Shown here: in pieces, positions 16,901-39,700 of the stretch
How positions within the stretch are numbered: the stretch's first letter is position 1
Layout: each line of letters begins with the position of its first letter
DNA from: a virus
Reading direction: 5' to 3' (one strand)
IMG/VR virus record: IMGVR_UViG_3300022602_002180
Coordinates: 1 to 40,172 of that record
Length of the DNA: 40,172 bases
Notes under the pieces: model-generated
The model's input: the letters and a program-made list of their open reading frames with translations, nothing else
Databases searched by the model: none
Told to the model about the DNA's origin: nothing
Position numbers and translations under genes: made by a program

Positions 16901-19900
16901 CAAACACAGGTAACAAGTTTGCCTGCTGGGGACACTGGTAATGCTACTGCAGCTAACCTTGTAGTAACTAATACTAAGACTATCCAAGATATCATGGCTG
17001 GCGGTTCGGTAATTACTGGACCAAATAACTCAACAGGTTACGGATCGAATCAGGGTCTAATACATCAGCCAGCATTTAATATGCCTACTGTAGCATCATA
17101 CAACACATACTATCTAGTAGGTTATGGTAATGCAGTTGCTCAATTAGTACAAAACTATCAATTCATCAAAGATGAAATTGCTAATTATCTAAACAACACA
17201 TTATCTGGTACAACTTGGTCACAGTATGGTCCAACATACCAAGCAGAGACTATTCGAGATTTAAGTAGTGTGTTAGATGCGTTACAATATGACTTAACAT
17301 ACGGTTGTAACAATCAATCATTAATTGTTGGTAATTCATACTACAGTTTGAATACAGCGTTAATCGTAGCACCTTACACTACTGGCGTATTGGCAGCGTT
17401 GAATCGCTTGTCAGCAATACTTCCTTATGTGTTAGATCCATCAGATAACGGTACTGCTTCCTCAGCAAGTTTAGTAAGTTCAGGTAATAATACAGCACAG
17501 GTAACAACTGGAAGTTCTGGTTCACAAGCCGCAGTAAAATTTGCTCAAGCTCGTGTTGCTGATATCATTTATTTCTTAAACAACAGTGGTTTCCCTAACA
17601 CAACAACTGGAACAACAACTGGTTATATTAGTGGAACTACATTGACAGTGACTAGCGGTACTGGATTGGCAATCGGTCAACTAGTAACAAGTACTGTATT
17701 AACAACAACTGCCACTGCTACAGCACAAACTACCAACGTTGTAACATTAGCAAGTACTACTGGAATTGTAGCTGGTATGGCTATTACATTCAGTACTCCA
17801 TACACTTATGGAAATCAGTTTTCTTTTGGCGGATTAACACAAACAACATATACAGTTAACGTTGTTTCAGGTAACACAGTTACACTATACAACTACGGTA
17901 CAACTACAAGTCCAACATTATCAACAGCAACTGGTCAGATGACAGTTACAGTTGGTATCAATCCAGGTACATATATCACAGCAGGTAGTGGCACAAGCTG
18001 GACAGTTAGTGTAAGTCAAACATACGGCACTTCAGGTGCCCAATTACCAATTACTGGAACATTTGCTATTACTCCGCAAGCATCTGGAGCAATCGCATTT
18101 GCTACTCCTGCCAACCAAGGATCGTTTAATGCTATCCAAGCCCGCGCAACTGAAATTGCCAACGATGCTACAGCATTTGTTAAAAAATTCTATCAAAGCG
18201 AAAGTCCAAGTTTAGTTCTAACTACACGTGACGCAAGTTATGTAGTTACTGCCCTAAGCTACGATACATTGTTTGGTAGTAACTTCTACAGTATTATTAC
18301 TGGACGTTCATATCAGAGATTAATTCCACTAGTAGCGGCTTTACAACAAACACTAGCTGACAGCACTTATGGAGCTATTGGCTTTATTGGTGAGCGTTGT
18401 AAACTATTGGCCGCAAACGGCGCAGTTGCTCAAACATCTATTGTTATAGATGAAATGGTAGCAAACCTACAAGGACAGCCAACTAATAATGCTGTATTCA
18501 ACGGTACTATTACTGGAACACAAATTATTGTTAACAGTATTACTAGCGGCGTAATTACAGCAGGTATGACTATAAGCGGTATTGGTATTACTACAGGTAC
18601 TACACTAGTATCTGGACCAACAATTTCAATTACTGGCGCATATCTAAGTGGTACAACAGGTGTGTTTACACTTGCTACTCCATTAAGTACTCCATTAGTT
18701 GTAGGTCAAACAGTTACTATTAGTGGAACATTCTCAGCAGGTAGTATCAGTGGATACGCATCTGGAACAGTTTACTATGTTATCGGTACTCCAACAACAA
18801 GCGCATTCCAGTTGTCAGCAACACAAGGCGGCTCAAATGTTACTTCTACCGCAGGTGGTAGTTCAGGAAGTCCTATAACCGGAATTACTATCACAGCTAG
18901 CCCAATAAACTGGTTAACTAACTATAGCCAATCAGTAAGTTCAACAACTACATCAGTTGTTAACGCAATTCCTACTACAAATTATTTGACATTAGGTACT
19001 ACTGTTGGTATGGTTCCTGGATTACAAATTACTCTCAGCGGAACTGCTATTGGTAATTTAGTATCCGGTGTTTATTATATTAAACAAGTATTGAGCGCAA
19101 CTCAATTAACTGTTAGTTCTACTTATGGTGGTTCTGTATTTGCTATCACTCCAACTAATACATTAACTGGAGTTCAAATTACAAGTGCTAACGGTACATT
19201 CACATGTAACGCAGTAAGTTCTACACTAGTTGTAGGTCAGCCAGTTACATTTAGTGGAACATTCTCAACAGGTAGCATTGTAGGATATAGTACACCAACT
19301 ACTTACTATATCATTGCTACTAACGGTTCAACATCGTTTACATTGTCAGCAACAGCTGGTGGTAGCGCAGTTGTTACAACAACATCAACAGGAACTATTA
19401 GCGGAATTACTGCTACAGTAGGTTCTATTGGCGCAATGACAGCCGTTGTTTATGGTATCTACAGTGGTTTATCTACAACAACAAATATTACAGCTTCAAG
19501 TACAGCTATTCCTGTAACAGCAGTTACAACTAGTACAAACTTAATTACTGTAAACAGCAACGCTGGTATGTATGTTAATATGCCAATCGTATTTACAGGT
19601 TTGCCTGCTCCAGTAACAACAACTGTACTAGCTACAATCGGTTCAACAACTAATACACTTACACTTGCAGCAACTGCCGCAAGTTTAGGTATTGTAGCAG
19701 GTCAGAAGATTTGGTTTAGCGGAACAAACTTAGGCGGTATAGTAAACTATCAAACCTACTATGTTATCAACCCAAGTGGTAGTACAATTCAATTGTCAAC
19801 TACATTAGGCGGCGGAGCTTTTAGTTTACAAACTAGCCCAACACTAAGCACAGTTGCTATTACTGGTACAGCTGGTCAGTTTAGCTGTGCTAGTACAACA

Positions 19901-22900
19901 CTAGTTGTAGGCCAAGCAGTTACAATTAATGGTGTATTATCTGCTGGTACAATCAACGGTAGTGCTACAGTAACCGCTACAACATTCTACATACTTGCTA
20001 CTAACGGTTCAACTACATTTACTCTAACAGGTACATTAGGTTCTAGCGTAGCAATTACAACTACAACAAGTGGCGGAACAATAACAGGCGCAACATTTGG
20101 ACTAAATGCTCAGTTAACAGCAACAGTAAACCAATCTGGTGGTATTTGGAATGGTAACATTTACTGGATCAACTCTGTAACAGCTGGCACATATCCAAAT
20201 GCTGGTACAAGTATTACAGTAACAAGTACATATAAGAGTGGTACAGCCCATGTTATTACTAATACAATTACTGGTTTAACAGCAACCGCCACAGCTGGAT
20301 TACAATTAACACAAGGTTCTCCATCTAAGATTATCAACGGTACAGTTGCTCCAGGATACGGAATTGTTTCTAACTATAGTGCTAGTGGTTATAACAATAC
20401 AATGACCACAATTCAAGGTGCTGAAATTATTCGTGCTAACAAAACATTCTTATCAAATGAAATTGTAGCATACATCATGAGCACTTACGGCGGAACTGTA
20501 ACTGCTACAGCAACTAATGGTACATTTACTACAAGTTCTGCTCACAACTTGATAGTTGGTGATCCAGTACAGTTTGGCTTAACTGGCACAATCTTTGATG
20601 CTAATATTTCTGCTAATACTCCATACTGGGTATTAACAACTCCAACTACTACTACATTCACAGTAAGTACTGTACAAGCAGGAACTGGTACACAATCTAC
20701 AGTAACGCTAGTCGGTGGCACCGGTTCTATGAACGTTGCTTACTATACTAATACAACTAAGTGTGTACGTGATACTGGATATTTCTTTGATGGACTTGTT
20801 TACGACTTGGCCAAGACAGGAAACTACAAAACTCTACGTGCTGTAAGTTCACACTTGTCAATTATCACAGGCGCAACAGCTAACGACTTGTTCCGTTTAC
20901 AAAGCGGTACTGGTATACGTAACATGACTTGTAACGGATTGTCAGGTAGCTTGGCATTACCAAATACATATGGCACACGTCGACCAACAGCTGGCGCTTA
21001 CGTAGCATTTGACCAAGGTTTTGGTCCAAACGACTCAAGCACATGGATTAACTATCGTTCACCATATACACAAAACATTACTAATTTTGGTAATGGTTGT
21101 ATAGGTATGAAGATTGATGCCGCATTACACAATGGCGGATTTAAGTCTATGGTGTCAAATGACTTTACACAAGTATTGTCAGATGGTGTAGGTATTTACT
21201 GTACAGGTTCAGGCGCTATTACTGAAGCAGTTAGCGTATTCTGCTACTATGGTTACGCAGGATATCTATCAGAATTAGGCGGACGTATCCGTTCTACAAA
21301 CGGTAACAGTTCATATGGTACATATGGTGTTATTGCCGAAGGTATCGACTCGTACGAAGCTCCAATTTATGCTACATTAAACAATCGTTATAACTCAGCA
21401 TACGTTACTAACGTAATTACAGATGCTACTAACTATGTATGGCGTTTAGAATATGAAAACGCAGGTTCATCATATACTAATGCTATTCCAACAGTCAGTG
21501 GTGCTGGTTATAATATTACTACAACACAAGACGAATTCCGTGATTCAGCAGTATTTGAAACACGTTTAGTTGACTTAAACAATGGACAAGGTGTTGGTGG
21601 TAGTAACTACTTAACAATCAGCAACGTAGCTCAAGTTGGCGCAGTTGGTTCTATTACAATTGCCAACTCAGATACTAATTTGAGTTCAGCATATCTTGGT
21701 ATGCGTGTTCAAATTACTGCTGGTACAGGTGTAGGACAGTACGCAAACATTATCGGTTATAGTAGTGCTTCAAAACTTGCTAACATTGTTCGTCCAAGTT
21801 TTGCTAGTTTAACTATTACATCAAACACAACAAGCGCATTTACTGTAGCAAGTACATCTACAATGTACGCCGGACAGCCAATTTACTTGTACACGCCTAT
21901 TGCTGGTTTATCAGCATCAACAGTTTACTATGTAAGTTCAGCAAGTTTTACAAGCACAGCATTCCAAGTTGCTGATACAGCGGCTCATGCTACAGCAGGT
22001 ACAAATAGCTACACACTAACTGCTACAACTTCAACACCAGCTACAATGGCAGGTTCAACTATTGTTGGAACTACATTAACAATTGGTGGTTCTATCACTA
22101 ACACTATCTATATTGGTATGTTATTAAGCGGAGGAACAGTTGCTGCAAATACTTACATTACAGCAGGTAGTGGTACAAGCTGGACTGTTAGCGTAAGTCA
22201 AAACATGGCAAGCACAACATTAACTGGTACAATCAGTGTTCCAGTATATGAAGCAGGTTGGGATCATGCTATTCCAGGCTATACAATTCAACCAGTATTA
22301 GATGCCACTTCAACTTATATTATTGAACCAGCAATCGCTTATACAAGTCCTGGTTTCTCAAGTAGCGCACGTACATTAAGTGGTGCTGGAAATACATGGG
22401 CTGGATTAACATACGGAGCAGGTAACTTTGTAGCTACGTCAACCGGCGCAACAGCAACATCTTACAGCACTGATGGCAAAACATGGAACGTCGGCGGTGT
22501 AATGCCAAGTTCTACAACATGGAGCAACGTAGTATACGGTGGCGGCCAAGGTGCTACAGCAACAGCAGTTGTTGGTGGTGTTGGCGGATCTGGAGCTATT
22601 CTTACTCCAGTTATTGGATCTGGTAACACAGCTGGACAAGTAGTAAGTATCACAGTTACTAACGGTGGCTACAACTACTTAACTCCCCCAACTATTGTAA
22701 TTACAGATAGTACTGGTACAGGCGCAACAGCAATTTGCCAAGTGTTAAATGGTACAATTCAGTTAGTTACAATGACAATTACAGGTAGCGGATATACTAA
22801 CCCAACTGTAACTGTAGTAACTAGTGAGTTATCAAGTATTACTGCTAACGTATGGGGACAAAACTACTTTGGCGCACCTACTGTTACAATTGGCGCTCCA

Positions 22901-28239: not shown

Positions 28240-29112
28240 ATGGAAAATAGTGTGATAAAATTTCATTCAAGACAAGAGCTACAGGTTATTAATACTGACA
28301 CGGGAATGTTGTCAGATGACGATAAAGCAATTTTAGAAAAAGCACATAATAAAGAATGGAAAAATCCTAAATTTAAAGTACGCTGGTTCGTAGGCGAAAG
28401 CCAGTTTACTCCATATGGAAAGATGAAGCAATTTTTACTCGAATTAAAAAGCAGAGAAAATACTGTTGAAATGATCGAGTATGAAATTGCTAAATTTGAA
28501 GTTCAAGAAAAAATTCATCTTAGAAATTCTGAAAATACAGATGATGAACTAGAAGCAGAAATGGAAAGAATAGAAGCCGCTAAAGTTAGAAAAGATATTA
28601 ATAAAAGTATTAATAGAGTTGCGGATTTTTACAGAGAAAGAAACGATCTCATTGATTGTCTAAATGAATTTTTAGCCAGCAGTGAAAGCAAAACACCCGA
28701 CGGCAGAAGTCTTATGGATATTTTAGATACTCCAGAAGAAGAAGAGTACGAAAGACAATATTGGACCGTAAGACTAGCAAGACAAGCTGCCATGGACATG
28801 TGTTCATATGGTAGAATTGGAGCTGGAAATTTAGAAGCTATCATGATGTTAGATAAAGATCATCAAGTTGAAGTAATTGGTTTAGCCAATCATTTAAATT
28901 TATCTTATGATACAAGACATCAGTTGATCAGAAATCAAGTAGCACAGCAACTAGGTATAACACCGCCTAAAGATGTGTTAATAGGCGGCGGCTTAGAAGC
29001 AGATTTAATTAATAGTATGATCCAAGCGGATCGTCCAGGCGTAATAGATGAGCTTACAAATACACCGCAACAAAATACTAATGAGGATTTAAACAATGTT
29101 TATAATCTGTGA
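28240..29112 (+). CDS. Charged, helical protein of unknown function
   Basis: 290 residues. Its composition differs sharply from the fiber genes: rich in Glu, Lys, Asp and Arg, with long predicted helices, notably about 85-150, where heptad-like spacing (EIAKFEVQEKIH, ELEAEMERIEAAK) suggests a coiled coil. A short conserved-looking segment RWFVGESQFTPYGKMKQFL lies at about 48-66. The C-terminus turns Asn-rich. The ribosome site is AGAGGA. Its end overlaps the next gene by 17 bases, which suggests coupled translation. Its place straight after the fibers would fit a fiber chaperone or assembly protein, but this is position-based inference only. I do not recognise the family. Confidence 0.6.
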   Translation: MENSVIKFHSRQELQVINTDTGMLSDDDKAILEKAHNKEWKNPKFKVRWFVGESQFTPYGKMKQFLLELKSRENTVEMIEYEIAKFEVQEKIHLRNSENTDDELEAEMERIEAAKVRKDINKSINRVADFYRERNDLIDCLNEFLASSESKTPDGRSLMDILDTPEEEEYERQYWTVRLARQAAMDMCSYGRIGAGNLEAIMMLDKDHQVEVIGLANHLNLSYDTRHQLIRNQVAQQLGITPPKDVLIGGGLEADLINSMIQADRPGVIDELTNTPQQNTNEDLNNVYNL

Positions 29113-29722
29113 AGCGTTCCCACCAGCAGATCCTAAAATGGAAAATTTAACTATACGTCATAGAATATGGGCGTACTATGTTTGCGAAGTTAATTCAGGT
29201 TTTGAAAACTCTATAGATGTTAATTCTGTAAACGGATCGGTATTAGAAGATGCTGTGGCAAAAGCTAGCATTTATTCACATTTAAATTTATTAAGTAACA
29301 ACGGAAGAAATATTAAATTTCCTGTAAATGCTAGTGAAGTTCAAGAATGGGCCGCTCCACATTTATCTTTAGATCCTGCGGAAGCAAGTCCTAAGGGTAA
29401 AGTTGCTTATACCTGTAGCGACGAAGATATTGCTAATACAGCAAAGTTTCTAAAAGAAATGATGCTTGTAGAATTGAACAATCACTACAATGCTCTTACC
29501 GATATAGAACAAGCAACTTTTTCTGATAAGAAAAATGAAATAATTTCAGAAATAAATTCATGCGAAGGCATTTTAGATTGCCAACGATTGTTGAATAAAA
29601 GATTTGACTATGCCGCTACTAATCAACAAGCTGAACTAGAAAATCTTCCTTCTCCAAAATGGGATCTTAGTACACCAGGATTAGAAGTTCGTTTAGGCGT
29701 TAAAAAAGTAACTTCAGAATAA
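29096..29722 (+). CDS. Protein of unknown function coupled to the upstream gene
   Basis: 208 residues, starting inside the end of the gene at 28240 (17-base overlap). Visible features: RHRIWAYYVCEVN (about 22-34), AYTCSDEDIANTAKFLKEMM (about 102-121) and a helical second half, then a C-terminal WDLSTPGLEVRLGV. There is no signal peptide, membrane segment or recognised catalytic motif. Paired Cys residues (about 160 and 165) are not arranged as an obvious metal site. It could form a complex with the upstream helical protein. It is followed by 47 non-coding bases that carry an inverted repeat before the tailoring operon. Confidence 0.6.
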   Translation: MFIICEAFPPADPKMENLTIRHRIWAYYVCEVNSGFENSIDVNSVNGSVLEDAVAKASIYSHLNLLSNNGRNIKFPVNASEVQEWAAPHLSLDPAEASPKGKVAYTCSDEDIANTAKFLKEMMLVELNNHYNALTDIEQATFSDKKNEIISEINSCEGILDCQRLLNKRFDYAATNQQAELENLPSPKWDLSTPGLEVRLGVKKVTSE

Positions 29723-29741: not shown

Positions 29742-29770
29742 TAGATAAGTATCTAACAAGGACTTATCTA
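29742..29770 (+). promoter_or_regulatory. Inverted repeat over the start of the tailoring operon, with GATAAGTA box
   Basis: TAGATAAGT (29742-29750) pairs perfectly with ACTTATCTA (29762-29770), a 9-bp stem around an 11-base loop that contains the AAGG ribosome site. The right arm ends on the A of the ATG at 29770. The left arm contains GATAAGTA (29744-29751), a late-promoter-like box 26 bases before the start. It could be an RNA hairpin that shields the start, or an operator. Confidence 0.5.
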
Positions 29771-30966
29771 TGACAAAAACCGTAGCCATCATTGGCGCTG
29801 GAACAGCAGGAATCTTATCAGCGTGTTATTGTTGCTCAAATCTTGGAAAAGGCTGGGCAATAACTTCAATATATGATCCTTCTAAAAAAATTCTAGGCAT
29901 TGGCGAAAGTTCAAATCCTTCTTTTATTTCAGCATTAGAAGAAGCTATCAATTTTAATATCCATGATGACTTGCCAGCCTTAGATGCTACACATAAATTT
30001 GGCACTAAATTTATCAATTGGCGCGAGCATGACTACTTATTTCCTCTAATAGAAGGTAATTGTGCTATACATTTCAATAACTTTAAACTACAGGAACTAG
30101 TATTTCCAAGACTTAAAAAAGCCTGGCCTAAAAAATTCAGTGAAATTTTAGGATCAGTTTCTTCTGTTGAAAATAAAATAGATTATGTAGAAGTTGTAGT
30201 GGACAATGTCACTCACAAATTTGATTATGTAATAGATTGCAGAGGGTTTCCTGAAGACTATTCAGACTATCATCTAGTAGACACATTACCGGTTAATCAT
30301 TGTTTAGTACATAATTTTAATGAACCTGGTGAATGGAAATATACCGGTCACAGGGCACACAGAAATGGGTGGATGTTTGAAATTCCTCTCACTACTAGAA
30401 AAAGTTACGGTTACTTATACAACGATTCTATAACTACAAAAGATCAAGCACTAGATGATTTTTCAAAAGAAATAGGCATAGACAAAACCGACTGGCAAGG
30501 AATCGAATATAAATTTAAGCCGTTTTATAGTAAAAATGTATTCGATGGCAGAATAATGAAAAATGGTAATCGTGCCATTTTCTTCGAACCGATTAGTGCT
30601 ACATCTATCTTTAGTTATGATCAAGCAAACAGAATTTTTATTGCTTACCTGATAGGGCAGATTAAAGATGTAGAAACAGTCAATAAAGAATTTACCAACG
30701 TAGCCGAAGCAGTAATAGATATCATTTGTTATTTTTATCATGGGGGTTCAATCTATGATACTGATTTTTGGAAATACGCTCAAAATATTACAGCCTCTAG
30801 AGTAAAAGATAGTAAAATGTTAAGAGTACTTGTACCAGAATATAAAGAAGCACTGCGTCGAGATTTACCTAAAAGCGGACCGACTTGGTTTTGGAAAGCA
30901 AAAGATATTTTGAAATTCTCGGAAGCCTTCGGCTATAATTATTTTAAAGGCAACAATAATGAATAA
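29770..30966 (+). CDS. Flavin-halogenase-like protein, degenerate active-site motifs
   Basis: 398 residues, shorter than the two other halogenase-type proteins here (506 and 492). FAD-binding motif GAGTAG at 9-14, GIGESSNPS near 43-51 and a Lys in ATHKFGTKFINW at 76, the place of the catalytic Lys of tryptophan halogenases. Two signatures have changed: WxWxIP is WMFEIP (201-206), and EPLE(S/A)TG is EPISATS (273-279), so Ser replaces the Glu that assists catalysis in PrnA/RebH. It is probably an FAD protein of the halogenase superfamily with altered or no halogenation activity. It opens the operon and overlaps the next gene by 8 bases. By-eye alignment; family assignment likely, reaction unknown. 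Confidence 0.7.
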   Translation: MTKTVAIIGAGTAGILSACYCCSNLGKGWAITSIYDPSKKILGIGESSNPSFISALEEAINFNIHDDLPALDATHKFGTKFINWREHDYLFPLIEGNCAIHFNNFKLQELVFPRLKKAWPKKFSEILGSVSSVENKIDYVEVVVDNVTHKFDYVIDCRGFPEDYSDYHLVDTLPVNHCLVHNFNEPGEWKYTGHRAHRNGWMFEIPLTTRKSYGYLYNDSITTKDQALDDFSKEIGIDKTDWQGIEYKFKPFYSKNVFDGRIMKNGNRAIFFEPISATSIFSYDQANRIFIAYLIGQIKDVETVNKEFTNVAEAVIDIICYFYHGGSIYDTDFWKYAQNITASRVKDSKMLRVLVPEYKEALRRDLPKSGPTWFWKAKDILKFSEAFGYNYFKGNNNE

Positions 30967-32635
30967 AAAGATTTTTAGTATTCCACTCAACCCTAAGTTA
31001 TCACCGGATCAGTTTCACTTTTTCTATAACTGGCTCTTGTCTAACAAAGACTATATCTACGATTTGTATTTTACAGCTCGTATTCCTCCTTTCACACAGG
31101 ATGCTATGGGCGATATATTTGTTATCGAAGAAGATAGAATTTCTTTGATAGAAACAGCTATTAATATCCAGGCGCATACTGGAATTTCTGTAAGTGCTAC
31201 ATTTAATAATACACAAATTCCTCCTACACAAAAAAATCTAGATTTGTTTATTAAAAATTTTAAACCAATGTATGACGCAGGTATTAGAAGTGCTACTATT
31301 CCTCACACTCACTGGGTAGCAACAGGGCAGATCCAGGCAGCCTTTCCTGAATTATATATTAAAAATACAATTTTAAGAGATGTGCGAACAGCAGTTGAAG
31401 TAGTAAATTTAGCAAAAGCTGGTTTCAATTACATCAACTTAGACAGAGATTTAATGAGAGATAGGGATACGTTACTTCGTCTTAAAGAAGCTAAGGAATG
31501 GATTAAGAAAAATTTAGGAAAAGAAATTAAATTTAGTCTGTTAACTAACGAAGGCTGTCTAGGCGCATGTCCTATGATGGTGGAACATTTTGAATACAAC
31601 AATACTAGAAGTAACGAACAGCCACAGTATTTTTATGACCCAATTAGTCGTGTAAGTTGCCCTAAATGGGAAGTACAAGATCCAGCAGTTTATCTCAAAA
31701 CTGCTAATCTTCCACCCTGGAGAGAAGAGTGGGAGGAGTTTTTAAACGACTTGGGTATAGATGTTTTTAAAATGCATGGTCGCGAAAGCTCGGAAAGATT
31801 TGGAGAAACATTAGATATAGTCGATAGATGGGTAAGAGGAGAAGCTATTCTTCATGAAAACTTTGAAAATTATTTAGAAGAAACTAATTTAGCAGGTAAA
31901 CCTATCGAAGCGTGGCGTAAGAAAATTAAAAATTGTAAGTTTGATTGCTGGGAATGTCAGTATTGCGACCGCATTGAAGAAATGAAAAGTAATGTAGACT
32001 ATACTGATCTAGTCAAACACGTAGCAGAAGCAGTTGCTACATCGGGTGTTCCTAAGATTAATAACAAGATTCCTGGGTTAACTAGTCAGCGTGTTCAGAC
32101 TTTATTAAATAGCATCGCGCAAGGTGTTGGAACTTATTTAGAAATTGGATCATACATTGGCGCAACAGCGGCTTCAGTATTACAAAATAATCTTATAACA
32201 GGTTATTTTATCGATCTATGGCAAGAACAAATACAACCAAGTAGACCAGATATTGCAAGAACACCTAATAATAATAAAGAAAAATTCATTGAAAATATTA
32301 AACCATATGTTAAAGAATCTAAAATAACTGTTATTAGCTCTGATATGTTATCGGTAAATCTTCAAGATATTAAAGAACCGATACAAATGATGTTCTACGA
32401 TGGTCCTCACGACCATGAAAGTGTAGTTAAAGTAATACAATACTACTATCCCGTTTTAGCAGAAGAAGCTGTTATTGTTTTCGATGATGCTAATTGGGAA
32501 GGAGTTGTTAGTGGAGCAACAGTAGGATTAGAATCTGTTAATTTAAGAACAACTTATAAGAAATTAATATTGAACGAAGAAGAAAGTTCTCAAGATTGGT
32601 GGAACGGGTTGTATATTGTTGTGGTTAAAAAGTAA
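30959..32635 (+). CDS. U32-like Fe-S barrel fused to an SAM-dependent methyltransferase
   Basis: 558 residues in two parts. Residues 1 to about 345: barrel-like protein with NEGCLGACPMMVEH (C200, C204), C234 and a dense CKFDCWECQYC cluster (C326, C330, C333, C336). The N..C...CP....H pattern and late Cys set suggest the U32 (UbiU/TrhP/RlhA) class, whose studied members act in oxidative modification of rings or RNA and hold a 4Fe-4S cluster. About 375-558: class I methyltransferase, with YLEIGSYIGATAASVL as the SAM-binding glycine loop, YFIDLW, and MMFYDGPHDHESV plus VIVFDDANW. The order fits Methyltransf_24-type enzymes. The next gene starts one base after its stop. The substrate is unknown; the fusion is unusual. 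Confidence 0.65.
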   Translation: MNKKIFSIPLNPKLSPDQFHFFYNWLLSNKDYIYDLYFTARIPPFTQDAMGDIFVIEEDRISLIETAINIQAHTGISVSATFNNTQIPPTQKNLDLFIKNFKPMYDAGIRSATIPHTHWVATGQIQAAFPELYIKNTILRDVRTAVEVVNLAKAGFNYINLDRDLMRDRDTLLRLKEAKEWIKKNLGKEIKFSLLTNEGCLGACPMMVEHFEYNNTRSNEQPQYFYDPISRVSCPKWEVQDPAVYLKTANLPPWREEWEEFLNDLGIDVFKMHGRESSERFGETLDIVDRWVRGEAILHENFENYLEETNLAGKPIEAWRKKIKNCKFDCWECQYCDRIEEMKSNVDYTDLVKHVAEAVATSGVPKINNKIPGLTSQRVQTLLNSIAQGVGTYLEIGSYIGATAASVLQNNLITGYFIDLWQEQIQPSRPDIARTPNNNKEKFIENIKPYVKESKITVISSDMLSVNLQDIKEPIQMMFYDGPHDHESVVKVIQYYYPVLAEEAVIVFDDANWEGVVSGATVGLESVNLRTTYKKLILNEEESSQDWWNGLYIVVVKK

Positions 32636-32636
32636 G

Positions 32637-33254
32637 ATGAAAATAACATCATATCCTCAAGGATTTTTAGTCGTTGACGATACTTACACATCTGACGAAC
32701 TAACGAAAATTTGGGAAGATATAGCTTCTATTGAAAATAATGATTATTTATTAGCACCCGAAGATTCAGGATCTGCTAAAAATCTTGACACTGGTGAATT
32801 TCTTAAAAATAATAAATCTGGTTTTTTAAATAGATTATTCGAAGAAGGAAAATTGAAATATATTGTTCCTTGCGGAGCTAAATTATTAGGGTTGGATGTT
32901 ATCGAATCTCTAAAAAAGATTCATCCAGCATTAGGTATTTACGAAAATCTTAATACTTACACTACTATGTTAAGCTACTATGATGATGGTATGTATTACA
33001 AGTCACATACAGATAATAGTGTTTTTACATTATTAACATGGTTTTATCGAGAACCCCGGGCATGGTCCGGCGGTGATTTAATATTAAATGACTGGAACAT
33101 AAAAATAGAAGCAAAAAACAATCGTTCACTAATAATCCCAGGATCTTATTCACATAAGGTTGTTCCGATAGTAAACAGTAGTACAGTTGACAACATGGGA
33201 AGATATTGTTTAACACAATTTTGTTTTGTGGAACCTAAAAGGATGGAAGCATAA
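32637..33254 (+). CDS. 2-oxoglutarate/Fe(II) dioxygenase, prolyl-hydroxylase type
   Basis: 205 residues from the ATG at 32637, which lies one base after the upstream stop. A TTG at 32616 in the same frame lies inside the upstream gene and is a poorer start. Jelly-roll oxygenase motifs in order: YYKSHTDNS gives H124-x-D126, the first two iron ligands; GSYSHKV gives H173, the third; MGRYCLTQF supplies R189, which would bind 2-oxoglutarate. The strand WSGGDLIL is typical of the prolyl 4-hydroxylase-like group. All key residues are present, so it is probably active as a hydroxylase. The substrate may be a peptide or a small molecule. It overlaps the halogenase-type gene that follows by one base. 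Confidence 0.8.
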   Translation: MKITSYPQGFLVVDDTYTSDELTKIWEDIASIENNDYLLAPEDSGSAKNLDTGEFLKNNKSGFLNRLFEEGKLKYIVPCGAKLLGLDVIESLKKIHPALGIYENLNTYTTMLSYYDDGMYYKSHTDNSVFTLLTWFYREPRAWSGGDLILNDWNIKIEAKNNRSLIIPGSYSHKVVPIVNSSTVDNMGRYCLTQFCFVEPKRMEA

Positions 33255-34774
33255 TGCTATTAAACAAAGTAAAAAATATTATTATTTTTGGAGGAGGTAC
33301 TAGTGGCTGGTTAACTGCCGCATACCTTGTTAAAAATTTAAAAAATTCTCCAAATATTATTCTAATAGAAAATAAAGAATTAGGACCAATAGGAGTAGGA
33401 GAAGGAACACAACCTGCTACATCGAGATTTCTATATGATGCCGGTATAATGCCTAAAACATGGATGAAACCAAGTAAGGCTAGTTTTAAACTTGGGGTAG
33501 AACTAATAGGGTGGAACGATGAACCTTATTTTGTTGATAATGATTATATTGAAAATACATTGATCAGCCATGATCTTAGAACACCTGACTATTTTATTAA
33601 CAAACCAGCTAAGGAGTTTTTTGACTGGTTGCCAGCGTATAGACTAGCGAAAGAAAATAAAAGTCCAAAGTTAGGTGGTTACGATATTGGATACGCTTCA
33701 TCGGGTATACGAGACTTTGGTGCGGTTCATTTTAGTGCTTTAGAAATCGTTTCTTCTATACGTGATATTATTTTTGATAAGATTTATTATTTTGACACTA
33801 AAATTGTCGACGTACAGACGAACGAAAACGGAATCGTATCTCTACAGGACGAACAGGGCCGTATACATTCGGCAGATTTATACATTGACTGTTCAGGTTT
33901 TAAATCTTTGTTATTAGAAGACGCTCTAGGTGTTAAATTCAATAGTGTAGAAGATATATTGCCATGTAATCGTGCTGTAGCAATGCCTACTAATTTTACC
34001 GATCCAGACAAAGAATGTCATCCTTATACTAAATCCACAACGATGAAAGCAGGATGGCGTTGGACTATTCCTACTTATGAACGCATTGGAAATGGGTATG
34101 TGTACAGCGATAAATTTATTACTCCAGAAGAAGCTGAAGAAGAATTAAGACAAGTTCTTGGAGAATTTGACGCTCCTGTTAGACATTTAAAAATGCGATG
34201 TGGCACACACGATCAGATCGCCTATAAAAATGTACTAGCAGTTGGATTAAGTGCTGGATTTGTAGAACCGCTAGAAGCTACAGGTATCACTTTTACTACT
34301 AAAATTGTAGAAGCATTTGTAGCTCAGATAAATCAAGCAGGCGGAGTTTGGGGAGACACATCTAAAAAGTCATTAAATGCGTCCTATAAAACTATGACAA
34401 CAGAAATTTTAGCATTTGTGTGGGCACACTATCATTTTAGTAAAAGATCCGACACTGATTTTTGGAAAGCGATTAGAAAACAAACTATCGATGATGCGCC
34501 TGAAGACATAAGAAAAGTATTTGCTAACTTTGTACCTGCTTTACACAATAATCCTTATCTAGATAAAACATCTGGGTTCCATATTGGACATTGGTTCAGT
34601 GTATTACACGCCGGTGGTTTATATAAAGACTCTGCGAATTTAACTCCTGAAAAACAAGCCTATATAGAATATTGGCTCAAAACTAGAGATGCTACAGTTG
34701 AACTAGTAAAAGAAAGATTTCCAAATCACTATGAATTTTTAAAAGAATGGTACGAAAACAATGAACCTATTTAA
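33254..34774 (+). CDS. Flavin-dependent tryptophan-halogenase-type protein
   Basis: 506 residues, close to the usual length of about 500-540. GGGTSGW at 13-19 is the FAD site with the Trp common in halogenases; GVGEGTQPA lies near 48-56. Lys79 in KASFKLGVELIGW matches the catalytic Lys79 of PrnA, even in number. WRWTIP at 268-273 is the signature WxWxIP, and EPLEATG at 338-344 keeps the catalytic-type Glu (E341). It should use reduced flavin from a host or partner reductase; no flavin reductase gene is seen here. Substrate could be free tryptophan, a Trp in a peptide or a phenol. AAGGATGGAAG lies upstream. It overlaps the next gene by 14 bases. Family is confident, substrate unknown. Confidence 0.85.
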   Translation: MLLNKVKNIIIFGGGTSGWLTAAYLVKNLKNSPNIILIENKELGPIGVGEGTQPATSRFLYDAGIMPKTWMKPSKASFKLGVELIGWNDEPYFVDNDYIENTLISHDLRTPDYFINKPAKEFFDWLPAYRLAKENKSPKLGGYDIGYASSGIRDFGAVHFSALEIVSSIRDIIFDKIYYFDTKIVDVQTNENGIVSLQDEQGRIHSADLYIDCSGFKSLLLEDALGVKFNSVEDILPCNRAVAMPTNFTDPDKECHPYTKSTTMKAGWRWTIPTYERIGNGYVYSDKFITPEEAEEELRQVLGEFDAPVRHLKMRCGTHDQIAYKNVLAVGLSAGFVEPLEATGITFTTKIVEAFVAQINQAGGVWGDTSKKSLNASYKTMTTEILAFVWAHYHFSKRSDTDFWKAIRKQTIDDAPEDIRKVFANFVPALHNNPYLDKTSGFHIGHWFSVLHAGGLYKDSANLTPEKQAYIEYWLKTRDATVELVKERFPNHYEFLKEWYENNEPI

Positions 34775-35519
34775 GAAAAAACTTAAGATTGAATTCTTTT
34801 CAACAGTTCCGGGTGTAAGTTCAGTATATCCTGTTATACCTGCTAAAAACTATATGCCAAACTGGGTTGAAAAAACCAAGGAACACTATAAGGATTTTAT
34901 CAAACATAATCAAACTTCTCGACAAGTTCATATCTATAGATGCCCAGGAATTTTTGATATACTACGAACAGGGTTTTATGTAACTATGCCATGGGATGTG
35001 TTAATAGAGACTAGAGGAGATCCTTGGGATTTTAAATGGACAGTCCCAAGCGCCGAGTTATCTGAATTAATGTATCCACATCCGTTAGTTGCTTCACATA
35101 AAGAGCTTGCCAGAATGTTGCCCACACCTCCGGGCGCAATGACTACAGTTATTAAGTTAGCTACACCTTGGCAGATCAAAGCACCTAAAGGTATCAAATT
35201 TATGGTATTGCCTTTGAGTTACTCGGACGCTTGGCAATACGAACATGTTCCAGGAATATTAGATCCGTCAGATAGCAGTGAAGTTAATTTTCAAGTATGG
35301 TGGTATGAAACTAACGGTCCTTATACAATAAAAGCAGGTACTCCCATCGCTCACTTAATTCCAATTACTGAAGAAGATTACGAATTAGTTGTTAGAGATG
35401 CTAATGAATTAGATAAATTATGGGTAACTAAAAGAAAATATCTGAACAACATTAGTTTTATGCACTTGAGAAACAAGTTGAAAAAAGCCTACTGGAGTCA
35501 CTGGAACAATGACGAATAA
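34761..35519 (+). CDS. Operon protein of unknown function, beta-rich
   Basis: 252 residues. An aromatic N-terminal half (MPNWVEKTKEHYKDF, RTGFYVTMPWDVLIETRGD) leads to a beta-rich half with GIKFMVLPLSYSD, a WWYETNGPYTIKAG strand and GTPIAHLIPITEED. The G..IAHL.P turn resembles the end of dUTPase-like barrels, but the catalytic motifs of those enzymes are not visible, so I do not assign that function. A DUF6065-type domain is a possible match that I cannot check. It overlaps the halogenase-type gene upstream by 14 bases and the oxygenase-like gene downstream by 11, so it is probably a partner protein in the tailoring pathway, perhaps substrate binding. Confidence 0.6.
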   Translation: MNLFKKKLKIEFFSTVPGVSSVYPVIPAKNYMPNWVEKTKEHYKDFIKHNQTSRQVHIYRCPGIFDILRTGFYVTMPWDVLIETRGDPWDFKWTVPSAELSELMYPHPLVASHKELARMLPTPPGAMTTVIKLATPWQIKAPKGIKFMVLPLSYSDAWQYEHVPGILDPSDSSEVNFQVWWYETNGPYTIKAGTPIAHLIPITEEDYELVVRDANELDKLWVTKRKYLNNISFMHLRNKLKKAYWSHWNNDE

Positions 35520-36021
35520 AAAAGAATTGTTTCCTACAACAATCCTTAGTGGCAATATCAGTATTGACAATGCTACAGTAGACGATTATCAAAAATGGAT
35601 GGAAATTCAAAAAGAAATTTCTACGGATACATACAATTCAACTACGCACAACGGTTTTCAACAAGCTCTCAATAGTGGTATGAAAGCACCCATGTGGTAC
35701 AAAAATATTTGGGATCAGCTTTCCACATTAATCGATGGAAAAATTAAAAGTGTTTGGGCCATTGATTACGAAATAGGCGGCTATCAAGATCCGCATATTC
35801 ATGCTCATAGCAAATATACAGTAATTTTAAACATTAGTGGACAGGGAGAGTTATTATTATTTGACCCTAGACCAATGGCAGCGGCAATAAGCGAACCTTT
35901 GGCAGAAGAAGTTATTTTAAATCCTGGAGATTTTATAGGATTTCCAGGATGGTTGATGCATTCTAGTCGACCTACAAGGACCAATAGAAGTATTTTAGTT
36001 ATGGATTTTAGTTATGATTGA
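35509..36021 (+). CDS. 2OG/Fe(II)-type oxygenase-like protein with an H-x-H motif
   Basis: 170 residues. The jelly-roll core is visible: DPHIHAHSKYTVILNISG holds H96-x-H98, with H100 nearby; LLLFDPRP follows; GDFIGFPGWLMHSSRP gives the distal H151; and TNRSILVMDF holds R160 in the place of the 2-oxoglutarate-binding residue. The usual H-x-D/E is replaced by H-x-H, as in the TIGR02466-like oxygenases of phages and marine bacteria, so metal binding is plausible but the chemistry is uncertain. A cupin is the alternative. It overlaps both neighbours by 11 and 8 bases. Probably a hydroxylase acting with the neighbouring enzymes. Confidence 0.65.
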   Translation: MTNKKELFPTTILSGNISIDNATVDDYQKWMEIQKEISTDTYNSTTHNGFQQALNSGMKAPMWYKNIWDQLSTLIDGKIKSVWAIDYEIGGYQDPHIHAHSKYTVILNISGQGELLLFDPRPMAAAISEPLAEEVILNPGDFIGFPGWLMHSSRPTRTNRSILVMDFSYD

Positions 36022-36595
36022 AAGATGGTTTTCGACTCCCTTATTTGTAGTGGATCTTGAAAAAGAAGATTTAGAAGAAATTCAAGAAGAAATTAAACAA
36101 GCACTACCGGATATACGTCAATCCTGTTCCTCCATTATACAGAACGGCAGTGTTGCTACGACATTTAATTTTGCTAACGGCACTCCTAATGATATTGAAG
36201 ATTTTAAATTAGTAAAATTTAAAAGAGAAATTGAATATCAACTGAATGAGTATATAAAAAATATCAAGTACAAAGGTGCTCCTTTAGAATTAATTAATTC
36301 TTGGACTACTTTTTATAATAAAGGCGGCTGCCATTTTGATCACATCCATCCCTTGAGCCGAGTATCCGGTTGTTATTATTATCAAACAAATGGTTCGGAT
36401 GGAAACATTATTTTTATGAATCCTAATCCCCATGCTCACACATTAGGATTTCCATCAGACGGCGTAAAAAACGAAAATGTAAATTATGCTCCTAAGGTAG
36501 GAAGATTAATATTTTTTCCTAGTTGGCTAATTCATAGAGTTGACATGAACTGTACTGATAACGAACGAATTAGTTTAGCTTTTAACTTTGAATAA
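36014..36595 (+). CDS. 2OG/Fe(II)-type oxygenase-like protein (TIGR02466-like)
   Basis: 193 residues. The motif CHFDHIHPLSRVSGCYYY at about 106-123 contains both H107-x-D109 and H110-x-H112, so the iron pair cannot be fixed by eye. The family pattern H-x-H...S..SG.YY favours the second. GRLIFFPSWLIHRV holds the distal H174, and ERISLAFNFE supplies R185 for 2-oxoglutarate. Length and motif order fit TIGR02466 putative oxygenases, which are common in T4-like cyanophages. The first base of the next ATG is the last base of its stop. Likely a hydroxylase; substrate unknown. Confidence 0.7.
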   Translation: MIERWFSTPLFVVDLEKEDLEEIQEEIKQALPDIRQSCSSIIQNGSVATTFNFANGTPNDIEDFKLVKFKREIEYQLNEYIKNIKYKGAPLELINSWTTFYNKGGCHFDHIHPLSRVSGCYYYQTNGSDGNIIFMNPNPHAHTLGFPSDGVKNENVNYAPKVGRLIFFPSWLIHRVDMNCTDNERISLAFNFE

Positions 36596-37191
36596 TGACG
36601 ACTGTTACTCTTAAAAAATTATTTCCTAAAAGTTTGTTAATAATCGATGACTTGTTATCGACCAGTGATCTTGTTGATCTAAATATCAATGCTAACAAAC
36701 TACTAATAAAATATGGAACTAACAAAGACACAGTATTATCGGTAAATTCTTCCTTTGGCACAAACAATTCATTGTTTAGTGATCCAGAACTTCGAGTAAT
36801 TGCAGATCTAATAATGTTACACGCTAAAGAATATGTAAAATTGTTAGGGTTCTCTGATAAAACTGCTGATAATTTAATTTACAGAAATATGTGGATAAAC
36901 ATTAGCAATGAAGGAGATTTTAATTTTCCGCACGTACATGGTGATAGTTTAATTTCTGGAGCATTTTATGTGCTATCTACTGCAGGATCTACTATTAGAT
37001 TTTTTAACGATATTACCAATACAATGCCTAAGCCAAAGACACCCACTGAGTTAAGTTTTGATTATTCAGATTTTGAATGTATAGAAAATAGATTAATTTT
37101 ATTCCGAAGCGATTTCTTACATGGAAATGCTAGACAACCCGCAGGAGAAAAGATTGTCATTTCTTTTAACATCGGAATAGGCAACAGCTAA
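36595..37191 (+). CDS. 2OG/Fe(II)-type oxygenase-like protein (divergent TIGR02466-like)
   Basis: 198 residues. EGDFNFPHVHGDSLISGAFY (about 106-125) gives H113-x-H115 and the S..SG.(F)Y strand of the family. RLILFRSDFLHGNARQP holds the distal H176, and EKIVISFNIGI places K186 where relatives have Arg, a conservative change for binding 2-oxoglutarate. It aligns in order with the preceding gene, so the two are probably old tandem duplicates. A 1-base overlap links it to the gene upstream. A 20-base gap with a GCTAAGTA box separates it from the next gene. Likely active as an iron oxygenase; substrate unknown. Confidence 0.65.
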   Translation: MTTVTLKKLFPKSLLIIDDLLSTSDLVDLNINANKLLIKYGTNKDTVLSVNSSFGTNNSLFSDPELRVIADLIMLHAKEYVKLLGFSDKTADNLIYRNMWINISNEGDFNFPHVHGDSLISGAFYVLSTAGSTIRFFNDITNTMPKPKTPTELSFDYSDFECIENRLILFRSDFLHGNARQPAGEKIVISFNIGIGNS

Positions 37192-37194
37192 GTA
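37187..37194 (+). promoter_or_regulatory. Possible late promoter box (GCTAAGTA)
   Basis: Same eight bases as the box at 788. It lies 25 bases before the start at 37212 and overlaps the stop of the gene at 36595, so part of the match (TAA) is explained by the stop codon. Confidence 0.25.
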
Positions 37195-37211
37195 GAACAG
37201 AGAGGAAAAAT

Positions 37212-37793
37212 ATGGAAGACTTATTCATCGGCCGATGGGACAACTTACTTACAAAGAGAGAATGTAATCAATTGATTCAATATTTTGAAGATATGAAATC
37301 TCTTAACAAAACATTTAATCGACAAGAAGATAAACACGGTGATCGACACAAAGTAGACGATGAAACTGTGTTTGTTACCGAACCAGAAGAATTTTCTTTT
37401 GACCATACACAAACAGCAATACAGCCATTTATACAAAAATTTTGGCCGGCTTATAATGAATATGTAGAAAAATACAGCGTAATCAAAGCTAGTAATGAAC
37501 ACGCTATGCTAAACATGAGATTACAAAAGACAAAACCAGGTGGCGGATATCACGTTTGGCACTACGAAACTAGCAGTTTTATTTCAAGTCCTAGATTTAT
37601 TACATACATGATATATTTGAACGATGTTGAAGAAGGCGGAGAAACAGAATTCTTATACCTACATAAACGTATTAAGCCTAAAGCGGGAACATTACTTATA
37701 TGGCCTAGCGGATTTCCCCACGCTCACCGTGGAAATACTCCGTTAACAGGGGACAAGTATATACTAACCGGGTGGTTAAATTTTATTAAATGA
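37212..37793 (+). CDS. 2-oxoglutarate/Fe(II) dioxygenase, prolyl-hydroxylase type
   Basis: 193 residues. LQKTKPGGGYHVWHYET carries H117-x-E119 as the first iron ligands. RFITYMIYLNDVEEGGETEF is the typical strand pair of prolyl 4-hydroxylase-like enzymes; PSGFPHAHRGNTP gives the distal His (H172, or H170); and GDKYILTGW places K182 at the 2-oxoglutarate site. All roles are filled, with Glu in place of the more common Asp. GAGAGGAAAA lies before the start. It ends the + strand operon; its last 18 bases overlap the end of the - strand halogenase-type gene. Likely a hydroxylase of a peptide or small molecule. Confidence 0.8.
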   Translation: MEDLFIGRWDNLLTKRECNQLIQYFEDMKSLNKTFNRQEDKHGDRHKVDDETVFVTEPEEFSFDHTQTAIQPFIQKFWPAYNEYVEKYSVIKASNEHAMLNMRLQKTKPGGGYHVWHYETSSFISSPRFITYMIYLNDVEEGGETEFLYLHKRIKPKAGTLLIWPSGFPHAHRGNTPLTGDKYILTGWLNFIK

Positions 37794-39254
37794 TCTCATT
37801 TTGGCTATTTCAAAATTAGTCATTGTGGTCATGTAGGCTGTTTTTTTATTTTTGTTAAAAGAATCTTCTAGCATAAATCGAGCAGATTTTTCTGGAACTT
37901 GTTTAACAGCATAATCTATACCTACAGCATCCATCCATATGTGTTTGTTGTGTGTTCCAAAAAGATGTTTATCACTTTGTTGTACAAACCACTGACGTTT
38001 ATACTTAAATTGTTCAATTGTAGCTAGTAAAGTGTCAGTAGGTTGATTATATTCCTGTACTTTTTTCCAGAATAATCCTGTTCTTTGGTTGTTAAGATAA
38101 TGGAGACCAATAAAATCCATAGCAGTATCATACCTAATTGATATTATGCTATTAAAACAATCAACATCGTCTTGTGTGTAAAAGCCTTTCTTTACTAAGT
38201 CACTAGAATTTACAATACCATCTATCATTAATTGTAGTCCGGTACTTTCTAATGGCTCAATGAATCCGCTAGCAAGTCCGATACTTAAACAATTATGTCT
38301 CCAATTTTTCTTATTATATTCTGGTTTAAATTTAATATGATTTAAACTGCTACTGATAATTCTATCAGCACCCCAATGATTTACAAATTGTTCTTCAGCT
38401 TCGGCAGGAGATAATAAACTACTGTCGTATACTAACCCAGATCCAATACGTCCTTGAATAGGAATCTTCCAAATCCATCCGTGATCAACTGCTTGAGCTA
38501 TTGTATAAGGACGCATACCGCTTTCTTGATCCTTATAGGCTATTTGACCAGCAACTGCTGAATTAAGAAGCAACATACTACTCTTGTCAACCCATTGACT
38601 ATCGGGTAGACTACTGCTTAGTAATCTTTTAAATCCAGTACAGTCAATATATAAGTCAGCTGTAACTTTTTCGTCATTGTCTAGCAGTAGATATTCTATG
38701 CCATGATCGTTAACTTTAACCTGTTTTACATTAGTCTGTTTATAGTTAATTTTAGGCATACATTTTTTAGATAAAAAATTAGCTAGTTTAATACAGTCTA
38801 AATGATAACCTTTACGAATATTGGCATTTGAAACTTTATTTTTAAGAACACATGTGGTCCAATCATCTAGGGCATACGTATTGTAATCGTATAATGTTTT
38901 ATCTTGAATGTTGTGCCACAACTCTATGTCACTAAGTTCTTCGTATTCCTGTCTAGTACGAGTAGTATTGAATGGATGCCAAACTACAGTTTTTTCATCT
39001 CGCCAACCAGGATATAGTATTCCGCATTTATAAGTAGCATCAGTTGCGGCCATCCATTCACTAGGATGTATCCCGCAGTTGTTTAAGAAATCGTCAAACC
39101 CTAAGATTGTAGCTTCGCCAACTCCTACGATTGGAATATTAGGGCTTTCGATTAGTGTTAAATTAATATCCGGTACTTGTCTGAGATAATAGGCTGCAGC
39201 AATCCAACCGCTAGTACCTCCTCCAACAATAACTATATTTTTTACTTTTCTCAT
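37776..39254 (-). CDS. Flavin-dependent tryptophan-halogenase-type protein
   Basis: 492 residues. GGGTSGW at 11-17 is the FAD site, GVGEATI lies at 44-50, and Lys76 in ATYKCGILYPGW is in the catalytic position. WIWKIP at 260-265 is the WxWxIP signature, and EPLESTG at 333-339 keeps the catalytic-type Glu (E336). All halogenase hallmarks are present, so it is probably functional given a flavin reductase from elsewhere. It is as different from the halogenase-type protein at 33254 as members of separate subfamilies would be, so it is not a recent duplicate. Its start overlaps the NUDIX gene stop by 4 bases (ATGA), and its end converges with the + strand operon. Substrate unknown. Confidence 0.85.
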   Translation of the reverse strand: MRKVKNIVIVGGGTSGWIAAAYYLRQVPDINLTLIESPNIPIVGVGEATILGFDDFLNNCGIHPSEWMAATDATYKCGILYPGWRDEKTVVWHPFNTTRTRQEYEELSDIELWHNIQDKTLYDYNTYALDDWTTCVLKNKVSNANIRKGYHLDCIKLANFLSKKCMPKINYKQTNVKQVKVNDHGIEYLLLDNDEKVTADLYIDCTGFKRLLSSSLPDSQWVDKSSMLLLNSAVAGQIAYKDQESGMRPYTIAQAVDHGWIWKIPIQGRIGSGLVYDSSLLSPAEAEEQFVNHWGADRIISSSLNHIKFKPEYNKKNWRHNCLSIGLASGFIEPLESTGLQLMIDGIVNSSDLVKKGFYTQDDVDCFNSIISIRYDTAMDFIGLHYLNNQRTGLFWKKVQEYNQPTDTLLATIEQFKYKRQWFVQQSDKHLFGTHNKHIWMDAVGIDYAVKQVPEKSARFMLEDSFNKNKKTAYMTTMTNFEIAKMRSFNKI

Positions 39255-39700
39255 ATTAAATCTACTAAATCAAATACAGTTTGTAGTTTAGTTCTAATGG
39301 TTTTTGAGCTAAAGCTATTACGTAAACCCTGATGTAAAGGCTTAGGAGCACGGTCTATAGTTGCCCACGCCCATCCGTAATGCTCGTCGCTTAGATAAGG
39401 AACAAATTCTTCCTTAATCACACAAAGATAAGTGTGAAAATTAAACACTTTATCATTGCTGACAAAAGTTTCGAGAGGAATTGTTTTAATTATTTCTGGA
39501 CTTGGTCCAATTTCTTCGTTGATTTCACGCACTAACCCTTGCCAAGGAGTTTCACCTTGTATGTTAGTACCACCAACTAAGCCCCACGTGCCTTCGTGTT
39601 TGCCGTGAGCTTTTTGTAACAGCAGAAAGCGTCGTGTAGACTTAGCATAAAATAATGCTCCACTACAAACAATTGATTCTTTTACAGTACTATTTTCCAT
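39251..39700 (-). CDS. NUDIX hydrolase
   Basis: 149 residues. The NUDIX box is complete: G44, five residues, E50, seven residues, then REINEEIG at 58-65, which binds the metal and the diphosphate of the substrate. The preceding KHEGTWGLVGGTN strand is typical and resembles GDP-mannose mannosyl hydrolase and ADP-ribose-type family members. Such enzymes cut nucleoside diphosphates linked to another moiety; the exact substrate is not readable. It overlaps the upstream virion gene by 19 bases and the downstream halogenase-type gene by 4, so the three are probably translated together. It may clear nucleotides or supply the halogenase-linked pathway (inference). Confidence 0.85.
   Translation of the reverse strand: MENSTVKESIVCSGALFYAKSTRRFLLLQKAHGKHEGTWGLVGGTNIQGETPWQGLVREINEEIGPSPEIIKTIPLETFVSNDKVFNFHTYLCVIKEEFVPYLSDEHYGWAWATIDRAPKPLHQGLRNSFSSKTIRTKLQTVFDLVDLI

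Follow-up and report, generated by a model that had tools for sequence, protein, structure and literature searches.

A recurrent phage island of halogenase and oxygenase genes as a candidate late protein-tailoring module

The window analysed in this study, a stretch of 40,172 nucleotides (positions 1 to 40,172 of the IMG/VR virus record IMGVR_UViG_3300022602_002180), carries a compact enzyme island that recurs beside the tail-fibre genes of marine T4-like phages and that, in our reading, would be expressed late in infection and would tailor the phage's own proteins; judging from the sequences, we give this reading a probability of roughly 45%. The island consists of nine genes on the + strand (29770-37793; Table 1), with a tenth enzyme gene converging from the - strand, and encodes a degenerate short halogenase, the fusion protein M, five oxygenases of the 2OG-Fe(II) type, the intact halogenase H and the DUF6065-like protein B. 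Its genes overlap by 1-14 nt, except for gaps of 1 nt before 32637 and of 20 nt before 37212. Fibre genes lie on one side of the island and neck genes on the other, and no intergenic gap between the giant adhesin and the last oxygenase exceeds 53 nt. The initial annotation had already recognized this compact nine-gene operon, and both its coordinates and the overlaps were confirmed. That it forms a working modification pathway in the window, as also proposed there, is what we infer in the following.

Table 1. Genes of the enzyme island and its surroundings in the window
Feature	Position	Strand	Matches and remarks
Giant adhesin, seven CBM_5_12 modules	13961..25540	+	PF02839 1.1e-39
phrog_1409-type protein	28240..29112	+	phrog_1409 5.6e-37
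208-aa protein, conserved upstream of M in related loci	29096..29722	+	64 homologues in M-type loci
Short halogenase-type flavoprotein, 398 aa	29770..30966	+	PF04820 E 2.7e-33
M, phrog_1458	30959..32635	+	phrog_1458 9e-169; Methyltransf_24 1e-10
Oxygenase 1, PKHD/2OG-Fe(II) type	32637..33254	+	phrog_61 2.6e-14; NCBIfam PKHD type 6.7e-7
H, intact FAD-dependent halogenase	33254..34774	+	PF04820 1.3e-91; PyrH-type and VirX1 matches
B, phrog_7084	34761..35519	+	remote DUF6065 relative; dUTPase-like beta fold
Oxygenase 2, PF13759/phrog_81 type, HxH...H...R	35509..36021	+	phrog_81 5e-13
Oxygenase 3, PF13759/TIGR02466, HxD...H...R	36014..36595	+	PF13759 7e-22; TIGR02466 2.4e-22
Oxygenase 4, PF13759/phrog_81 type, HxH...H...K	36595..37191	+	PF13759 4.8e-9
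Oxygenase 5, PF13640/phrog_61, prolyl-hydroxylase-like HxE...H...K	37212..37793	+	PF13640 1.8e-12; phrog_61 4e-49
Convergent intact halogenase	37776..39254	-	PF04820 E 1.2e-96; VirX1 (6QGM) E 2.3e-67

The same gene set is found across hundreds of viral contigs. A halogenase lies directly upstream of B in 35 of 47 testable non-redundant B genes, most of these halogenase-B loci have three to six oxygenases within the next 6 kb downstream, and the order M, H, oxygenase, B is repeated in many of the 80 loci with M; convergent halogenases are likewise common at related loci. The initial annotation had named genes that are scattered and never together in related phages as an outcome that would speak against it, and what we find is that halogenase, B and oxygenases stand together in most B loci, which supports the view that the island genes belong together. 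The halogenase of Campylobacter phage CP21, considered as a further member, has no island around it.

All three halogenase-type proteins of the window, of which the initial annotation had correctly called one degenerate and one convergent, retain the GxGxxG FAD-binding motif. H has GGGTSG, K79, WRWTIP and E341 in place, the convergent protein retains every motif, and the catalytic pair of Lys (K79) and Glu (E346) is kept in both. Among 85 halogenase-type proteins, the catalytic Lys is present in all and the catalytic Glu in 84; the sole exception is the product of the 29770 gene, which reads EPISATSI instead of EPLESTGI while retaining the Lys. Given that it also has WMFEIP in place of WxWxIP, this protein, which groups with the short S-SSM5 type, belongs to the halogenase family by descent and is probably inactive as a halogenase. 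The best solved relative of the convergent halogenase is VirX1 of cyanophage Syn10 (PDB 6QGM), a member of the same family as the window halogenases and identical to the H of the halogenase-B pair in the syn9/Syn10 island (97/97 residues compared); H of the window differs in belonging to its own clade, together with M-type loci. VirX1 is reported to have a large open active site, to take bulky substrates and to be without a known native substrate (PMC8407142), and it has been studied solely as an isolated biocatalyst.

The five iron-oxygenase-like genes noticed in the initial annotation all match PF13640/PF13759 or phrog_61/81; oxygenases 1 and 2 stay below the Pfam cut-offs, and their matches to 2OG families of PHROG are at about 1e-13 to 1e-14. 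The HxD/E...H iron ligands and a distal Arg or Lys are present in oxygenases 3 and 5 and, as read by eye (HTD...H...R), in oxygenase 1, while oxygenases 2 and 4 have HxH instead, as do 273 of the 484 family members examined. Oxygenase 1 starts at an ATG at 32637, the listed open reading frame beginning at an upstream TTG (32616), and a close homologue is absent from the other islands compared. Oxygenase sets vary from phage to phage, and 2OG genes are found outside the island, too. Similar tandem PF13640/PF13759 genes in T4-like cyanophages (S-CREM1, S-SCSM1, syn9) have been published as auxiliary metabolic genes (PMC9602691, PMC9964418); in the literature examined, we did not find a conserved link of these arrays with a halogenase, B, a late promoter and a tail.

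M had been described as a fusion of a U32 protein with a methyltransferase. Its methyltransferase half stands (Table 1), and the model (pLDDT 83) comprises an N-terminal TIM barrel followed by a SAM methyltransferase, with structure matches to both. The U32 label for the N-terminal half, in which a Cys is conserved, is weakly supported: the Peptidase U32 family model PF01136 gave no match at E<=10, and among 26 E. coli proteins compared with M, TrhP ranked first and RlhA second, the best hit (TrhP) being weak (E 0.0018, probability 15%). M shares weak profile similarity with TrhP/RlhA, and a TIM-barrel/methyltransferase architecture with these and TrmR, but remains below any family cut-off, unites both halves in one protein and is linked to a halogenase and oxygenases. 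As a relative of UbiV, M gave no match. Since it frequently occurs without halogenase or B, M may have a role of its own.

B, noted initially as a beta-rich protein, is indeed modelled as a dUTPase-like beta fold (pLDDT 93; nearest Foldseek match a dUTPase, E 1e-4). The likeness is one of fold only: by direct reading, the dUTPase motif 4 (RxxQ) is gone and AGTPxxH/Q stands in its place, and we rejected a catalytic dUTPase on this motif. A scan with the single sequence returned no relatives of B, whereas alignment-based searches did; hhalign profile comparison with a DUF6065 protein gave a probability of 95% (E 2e-8), and against the DUF6065 model (PF19541) 4 of 49 members matched weakly (best E 0.0028), with no match over the whole record. 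In 297 genomes of one phylum, we found a single DUF6065 match, without a halogenase or oxygenase nearby, and B therefore gains no guilt-by-association from cellular genomes.

The timing of expression is indicated by T4-type late promoter motifs, scored as consensus matches. Of 45 islands, 13 have such a motif in the 120 nt that precede the first halogenase, often right behind a terminator hairpin, against 2 of 440 oxygenase or B genes; overall, 97 of 223 occurrences fall within 80 nt upstream of an ORF start, compared to 16 at random positions. In the window, a late-promoter-like motif (GATAAATACTAT) is found at about 13933, before the giant adhesin. In cyanophages such as syn9, the motif does not directly precede the halogenases, and sigma-70 promoters and terminators showed no excess over shuffled sequences. 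Since in many related islands the late promoters stand ahead of the first halogenase, with hardly any before oxygenases, the island appears to be a late operon rather than one of early host metabolism. The idea of a modification module is thereby supported and extended, as it fits these promoters and the position between fibre and neck genes better than a metabolite route does.

A candidate substrate emerged from sister islands, where the halogenase gene is immediately preceded by one for a small phrog_1787 protein with a conserved, tryptophan-rich C-terminal tail, PAWKRYPGW (REVPCWKRYPGWSGYIPPEDSV in syn9 gp40). All 51 phrog_1787 proteins that are followed by a halogenase are extended at the C-terminus by at least 25 aa that include a Trp, and 47 of them have P[ACS]W, compared to 0 of 51 without a halogenase (median extension 1 aa), the two sets having been sampled differently. 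In the anchored tails, P and W are invariant and the preceding linker is more variable; the motif is conserved as protein and not as DNA, with all four Gly codons and several Arg codons in use. The tail accompanies the halogenase even where B is missing (three loci, L184-L186), and S-B64, whose halogenase is encoded elsewhere in the genome, has the short form without the tail. The tail-bearing proteins form one clade with one change on the tree, so that the association represents one acquisition retained and not many independent events; as the tail arose once, its link with the halogenase is a correlation and not proof. MibH and ChlH are peptide-acting FAD halogenases of RiPP pathways, which act on Trp in the tail of a ribosomal peptide whose gene neighbours their own. 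The tailed phrog_1787 proteins resemble such precursors in having a conserved core after a variable linker and a gene that adjoins the modifying enzyme, but here a phage protein bears the tail, modification of the tail is predicted, and we noticed no peptidase, exporter or lanthipeptide/lasso gene with the island. As far as sequence comparison can tell, this tail gives viral halogenases their first concrete candidate substrate.

phrog_1787 is absent from the window, and its nearest analogue there is the tail EDLNNVYNL (29083-29109) of the phrog_1409-type protein. This VYN tail is present in 40 of 43 cases with a halogenase, in 1 of 21 without and in 0 of 6 further cyanophages; these early strong counts are confounded by the start codon of the next gene, which overlaps the tail in 30 of 41 cases, and we therefore give the tail little weight and do not retain it as the substrate in the window. 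T4 gp26- and gp51-type hub genes, considered as identities of two upstream genes, showed no profile similarity.

If the enzymes do act on the phage's own proteins, the structural and fibre genes and the enzyme operon would be read together late in infection. The FAD halogenase (H in the window, VirX1 in sister phages) would attack an aromatic residue in the exposed C-terminal tail of a small phage protein encoded immediately upstream, and the row of 2OG-Fe(II) oxygenases would hydroxylate proteins of the same assembly, probably on Pro, Asp, Asn or Lys side chains. M may add a methyl group, its TIM-barrel half possibly performing a second oxidation, and B could be a partner of the halogenase or a scaffold. 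The island of the window is presumed to act like its sisters.

PrnA-type relatives of these halogenases act on free tryptophan, as would be expected if the enzymes altered host metabolites, be it the 2OG/nitrogen balance or an antibiotic-like halogenated compound. This is also the published reading, in which 2OG genes are connected with NtcA and nitrogen stress (PMC3037559) and prnA, in terms called speculative, with protection from antibiotics (PMC2984593; PMC9964418). We consider it rather unlikely in view of the late promoters and the position among virion genes; moreover, we noticed no gene for a carrier protein, NRPS or PKS in the window or in the islands annotated, and the halogenase-linked tail of the adjacent protein would be left unexplained. 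Many large contigs with the island lack psbA, and its role is therefore not tied to photosynthetic hosts.

Modification of the neighbouring giant fibres for receptor binding, an idea of the initial annotation, gains from a giant ORF upstream of B in 19 of 29 testable loci and from the adhesins that directly precede the island in the window without large gaps; these could still serve as substrates of the oxygenases without being targets of the halogenase. However, the Trp- and Tyr-rich N-terminal repeats proposed as special substrates turned out to be standard CBM5/12 modules (5 + 7 CBM_5_12), an ordinary origin of this richness that weakens the idea. The window fibres contain no collagen-like Gly-X-Y runs, many M loci have no ORF >1000 aa in the flanks examined, and our literature search yielded no publication in which oxygenases modify the tail fibres of phages. 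Adhesins are thus unlikely targets in our view, and the phrog_1787 tail of the sister islands appears to be the stronger substrate candidate. Quite improbable is a modification of nucleic acids, with the 2OG enzymes, B and the methyltransferase acting on phage DNA or host tRNA and M perhaps being a TrhP-TrmR-like fusion that makes methoxyuridine in tRNA. TrmR is the only PDB sequence match of the methyltransferase half of M, the weak likeness to TrhP, the fold of B and the occurrence of M apart from halogenase and B point the same way, but other methyltransferases equal TrmR in fold match, and the late promoters and the altered motif 4 of B argue against it.

In marine T4-like phages, few unexplained genes are as common as those for halogenases and 2OG enzymes, which tend to be classed with host metabolism. 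Extending the protein-tailoring reading, we tentatively suggest that these phages may halogenate and hydroxylate the C-terminal tail of a small late virion or assembly protein of their own, that VirX1-type halogenases would have evolved for this RiPP-like post-translational modification, and that the window may represent the version of a lineage not tied to cyanobacteria. With a conserved late module and a tail that follows the halogenase, the natural role of VirX1 becomes a simple question for a peptide assay. Should this hold true, phages would be using halogens to tailor their own particles, which would be new to virus biology and would provide a source of halogenases that act on peptides.

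The enzyme gene cluster in this linear 40,172-base viral record, a fragment, is real and conserved. All ten genes of the initial annotation are present with the overlaps it described, as a check of the gene coordinates confirmed. Family searches place its three halogenase-type genes in the Trp_halogenase family and its five candidate iron oxygenases among the 2OG-Fe(II)-type oxygenases. The halogenase it called degenerate is short and has lost its catalytic Glu and part of the WxWxIP motif; the other two keep every catalytic motif. Three of the oxygenases carry the usual HxD/E...H iron-ligand pattern and two carry HxH, which is common within their branch. The gene M (phrog_1458) encodes a fusion of a TIM barrel and a methyltransferase, for which the proposed label 'U32' fits weakly: TrhP and RlhA rank top among the 26 proteins compared, but there is no family match. 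The supposedly unknown beta-rich protein, B (phrog_7084), is distantly related to DUF6065 and has a dUTPase-like fold.

Coordinates of the features discussed in the window
Feature	Position	Strand	Remark
Giant adhesin	5346-13907		5 CBM_5_12 modules, N-terminal
Giant adhesin	13961-25540		7 CBM_5_12 modules, N-terminal; late motif ahead of it
phrog_1409-type gene	28240-29112		C-terminal end EDLNNVYNL
Enzyme island	29770-37793	+	
Degenerate halogenase	from 29770	+	
M (phrog_1458)	30959-32635	+	
Intact halogenase (H)	33254-34774	+	
B (phrog_7084)	34761-35519	+	
Convergent halogenase	37776-39254	-	
NUDIX hydrolase	39251-39700	-	directly upstream of the convergent halogenase, overlapping it by 4 nt

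Relatives of B were detected in 188 viral stretches; 80 loci were kept and, together with annotated phages, gave a non-redundant set of 50 proteins, in which a halogenase lies directly upstream of B in 35 of the 47 testable genes. In most B loci, 3-6 oxygenases follow within 6 kb; a convergent halogenase lies further on in 15/23 and a giant ORF upstream in 19/29. The block sits between fibre and neck genes in the annotated phages S-RIM44, Sf-FR1 and Sf-FP1, and is also found in syn9, P-TIM40 and S-CREM1. Among 80 M loci, a halogenase is present in 49 and B in 46, usually in the orders M-H-o-B, M-o-H-o-B or M-H-o-o-B (o, oxygenase); the window is a locus of this kind. Halogenases split into clades specific to gene position, and since the window's convergent gene lies outside those of other convergent pairs, this layout may have more than one origin. 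Exactly 123 phage records contain M and exactly 123 contain the phrog_1409 gene, distributed identically over organism names; the two therefore probably always occur together, even without a halogenase. S-SSM5, with a short halogenase directly 3' of the late-transcription accessory gene gp33 (L014:7992-9158), and pelagiphage HTVC008M (L010), with minus-strand oxygenase genes beside neck genes and a separate halogenase, show other arrangements of the same parts. In three annotated cyanophages (L008, L013, L292), genes labelled 'DNA endonuclease V' or 'ferrochelatase' match 2OG oxygenase families and look misannotated. A 188-kb contig filed as Nonlabens xiamenensis (L097) resembles a cyanophage genome near P-TIM40 and is probably a contamination of that assembly.

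Of 223 occurrences of the T4-type late motif (TATAAATA or TAAATAnTAT), 97 lie within 80 nt upstream of an ORF start, compared with 16 for random positions, and the distance to the start peaks at 30-40 nt. In 13 of 45 islands the motif precedes the first halogenase, in many cases just behind a terminator hairpin, but it precedes only 2 of 440 oxygenase or B genes. From the motif ahead of the second adhesin to the end of the last oxygenase, no gap in the window exceeds 53 nt. Judging from these motifs and this near-gapless run, the island is probably transcribed late, together with structural genes.

Immediately ahead of their first halogenase, cyanophage-type islands carry a gene for a phrog_1787 protein whose C-terminal extension ends in motifs such as ELPAWKRYPGWKGY. 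Where a halogenase follows, all 51 proteins have a Trp-containing extension of at least 25 residues, 47 of them with P[ACS]W, whereas this motif occurs in 0 of 51 proteins without a halogenase (median extension, one residue), the two groups having been gathered by different queries, with short forms sampled too. The motif is conserved at the protein level, its glycine being encoded by all four codons. The tail originated once on the phrog_1787 tree, is retained where the halogenase occurs without B, and is missing in S-B64, whose halogenase lies elsewhere in the genome. A docking site and a substrate are equally compatible with these data. The window has no phrog_1787 gene; the VYN tail of its phrog_1409-type protein goes along with the halogenase in related loci, and was found in none of six further cyanophages without a halogenase at that place. 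As the next gene's start codon falls inside this tail in 30 of 41 cases, its conservation may reflect nucleotide constraint, and this overlap leaves it little weight as evidence for the substrate.

VirX1, the characterised halogenase of cyanophage Syn10, is reported to be trimeric and broad in scope, and its active site to be large and accessible; a review gives no natural substrate for it (PMC8407142). It represents the halogenase of the syn9/Syn10 pair (97/97 compared residues identical to syn9 gp42), and in syn9 the next gene is B. Cyanophage 2OG genes have been interpreted as serving nitrogen stress, DNA repair or general metabolism (PMC3037559, PMC9602691, PMC9964418), and the halogenase as possible antibiotic protection, flagged as speculative (PMC2984593); in this literature we found neither the phrog_1787 tail nor any account of the island as a module for late tailoring of proteins. 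psbA/psbD are carried by syn9 and one other contig, but were not found in any M-type island contig checked (up to 245 kb) or in several B-type contigs of up to 278 kb, some of which may be incomplete records; this pattern speaks against a function that depends on a photosynthetic host.

The adhesins had been proposed as substrates for their Trp- and Tyr-rich repeats. These repeats turn out to be CBM_5_12 modules, which is enough to account for their aromatic content; the modules suggest binding of chitin-like or other polysaccharides. We rank adhesin tailoring, host metabolism and nucleic-acid modification behind protein tailoring; which reactions take place, on which substrate, and what M and B contribute are inferred. 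With a probability of about 0.45, protein tailoring is the best-supported reading of what the island may do.
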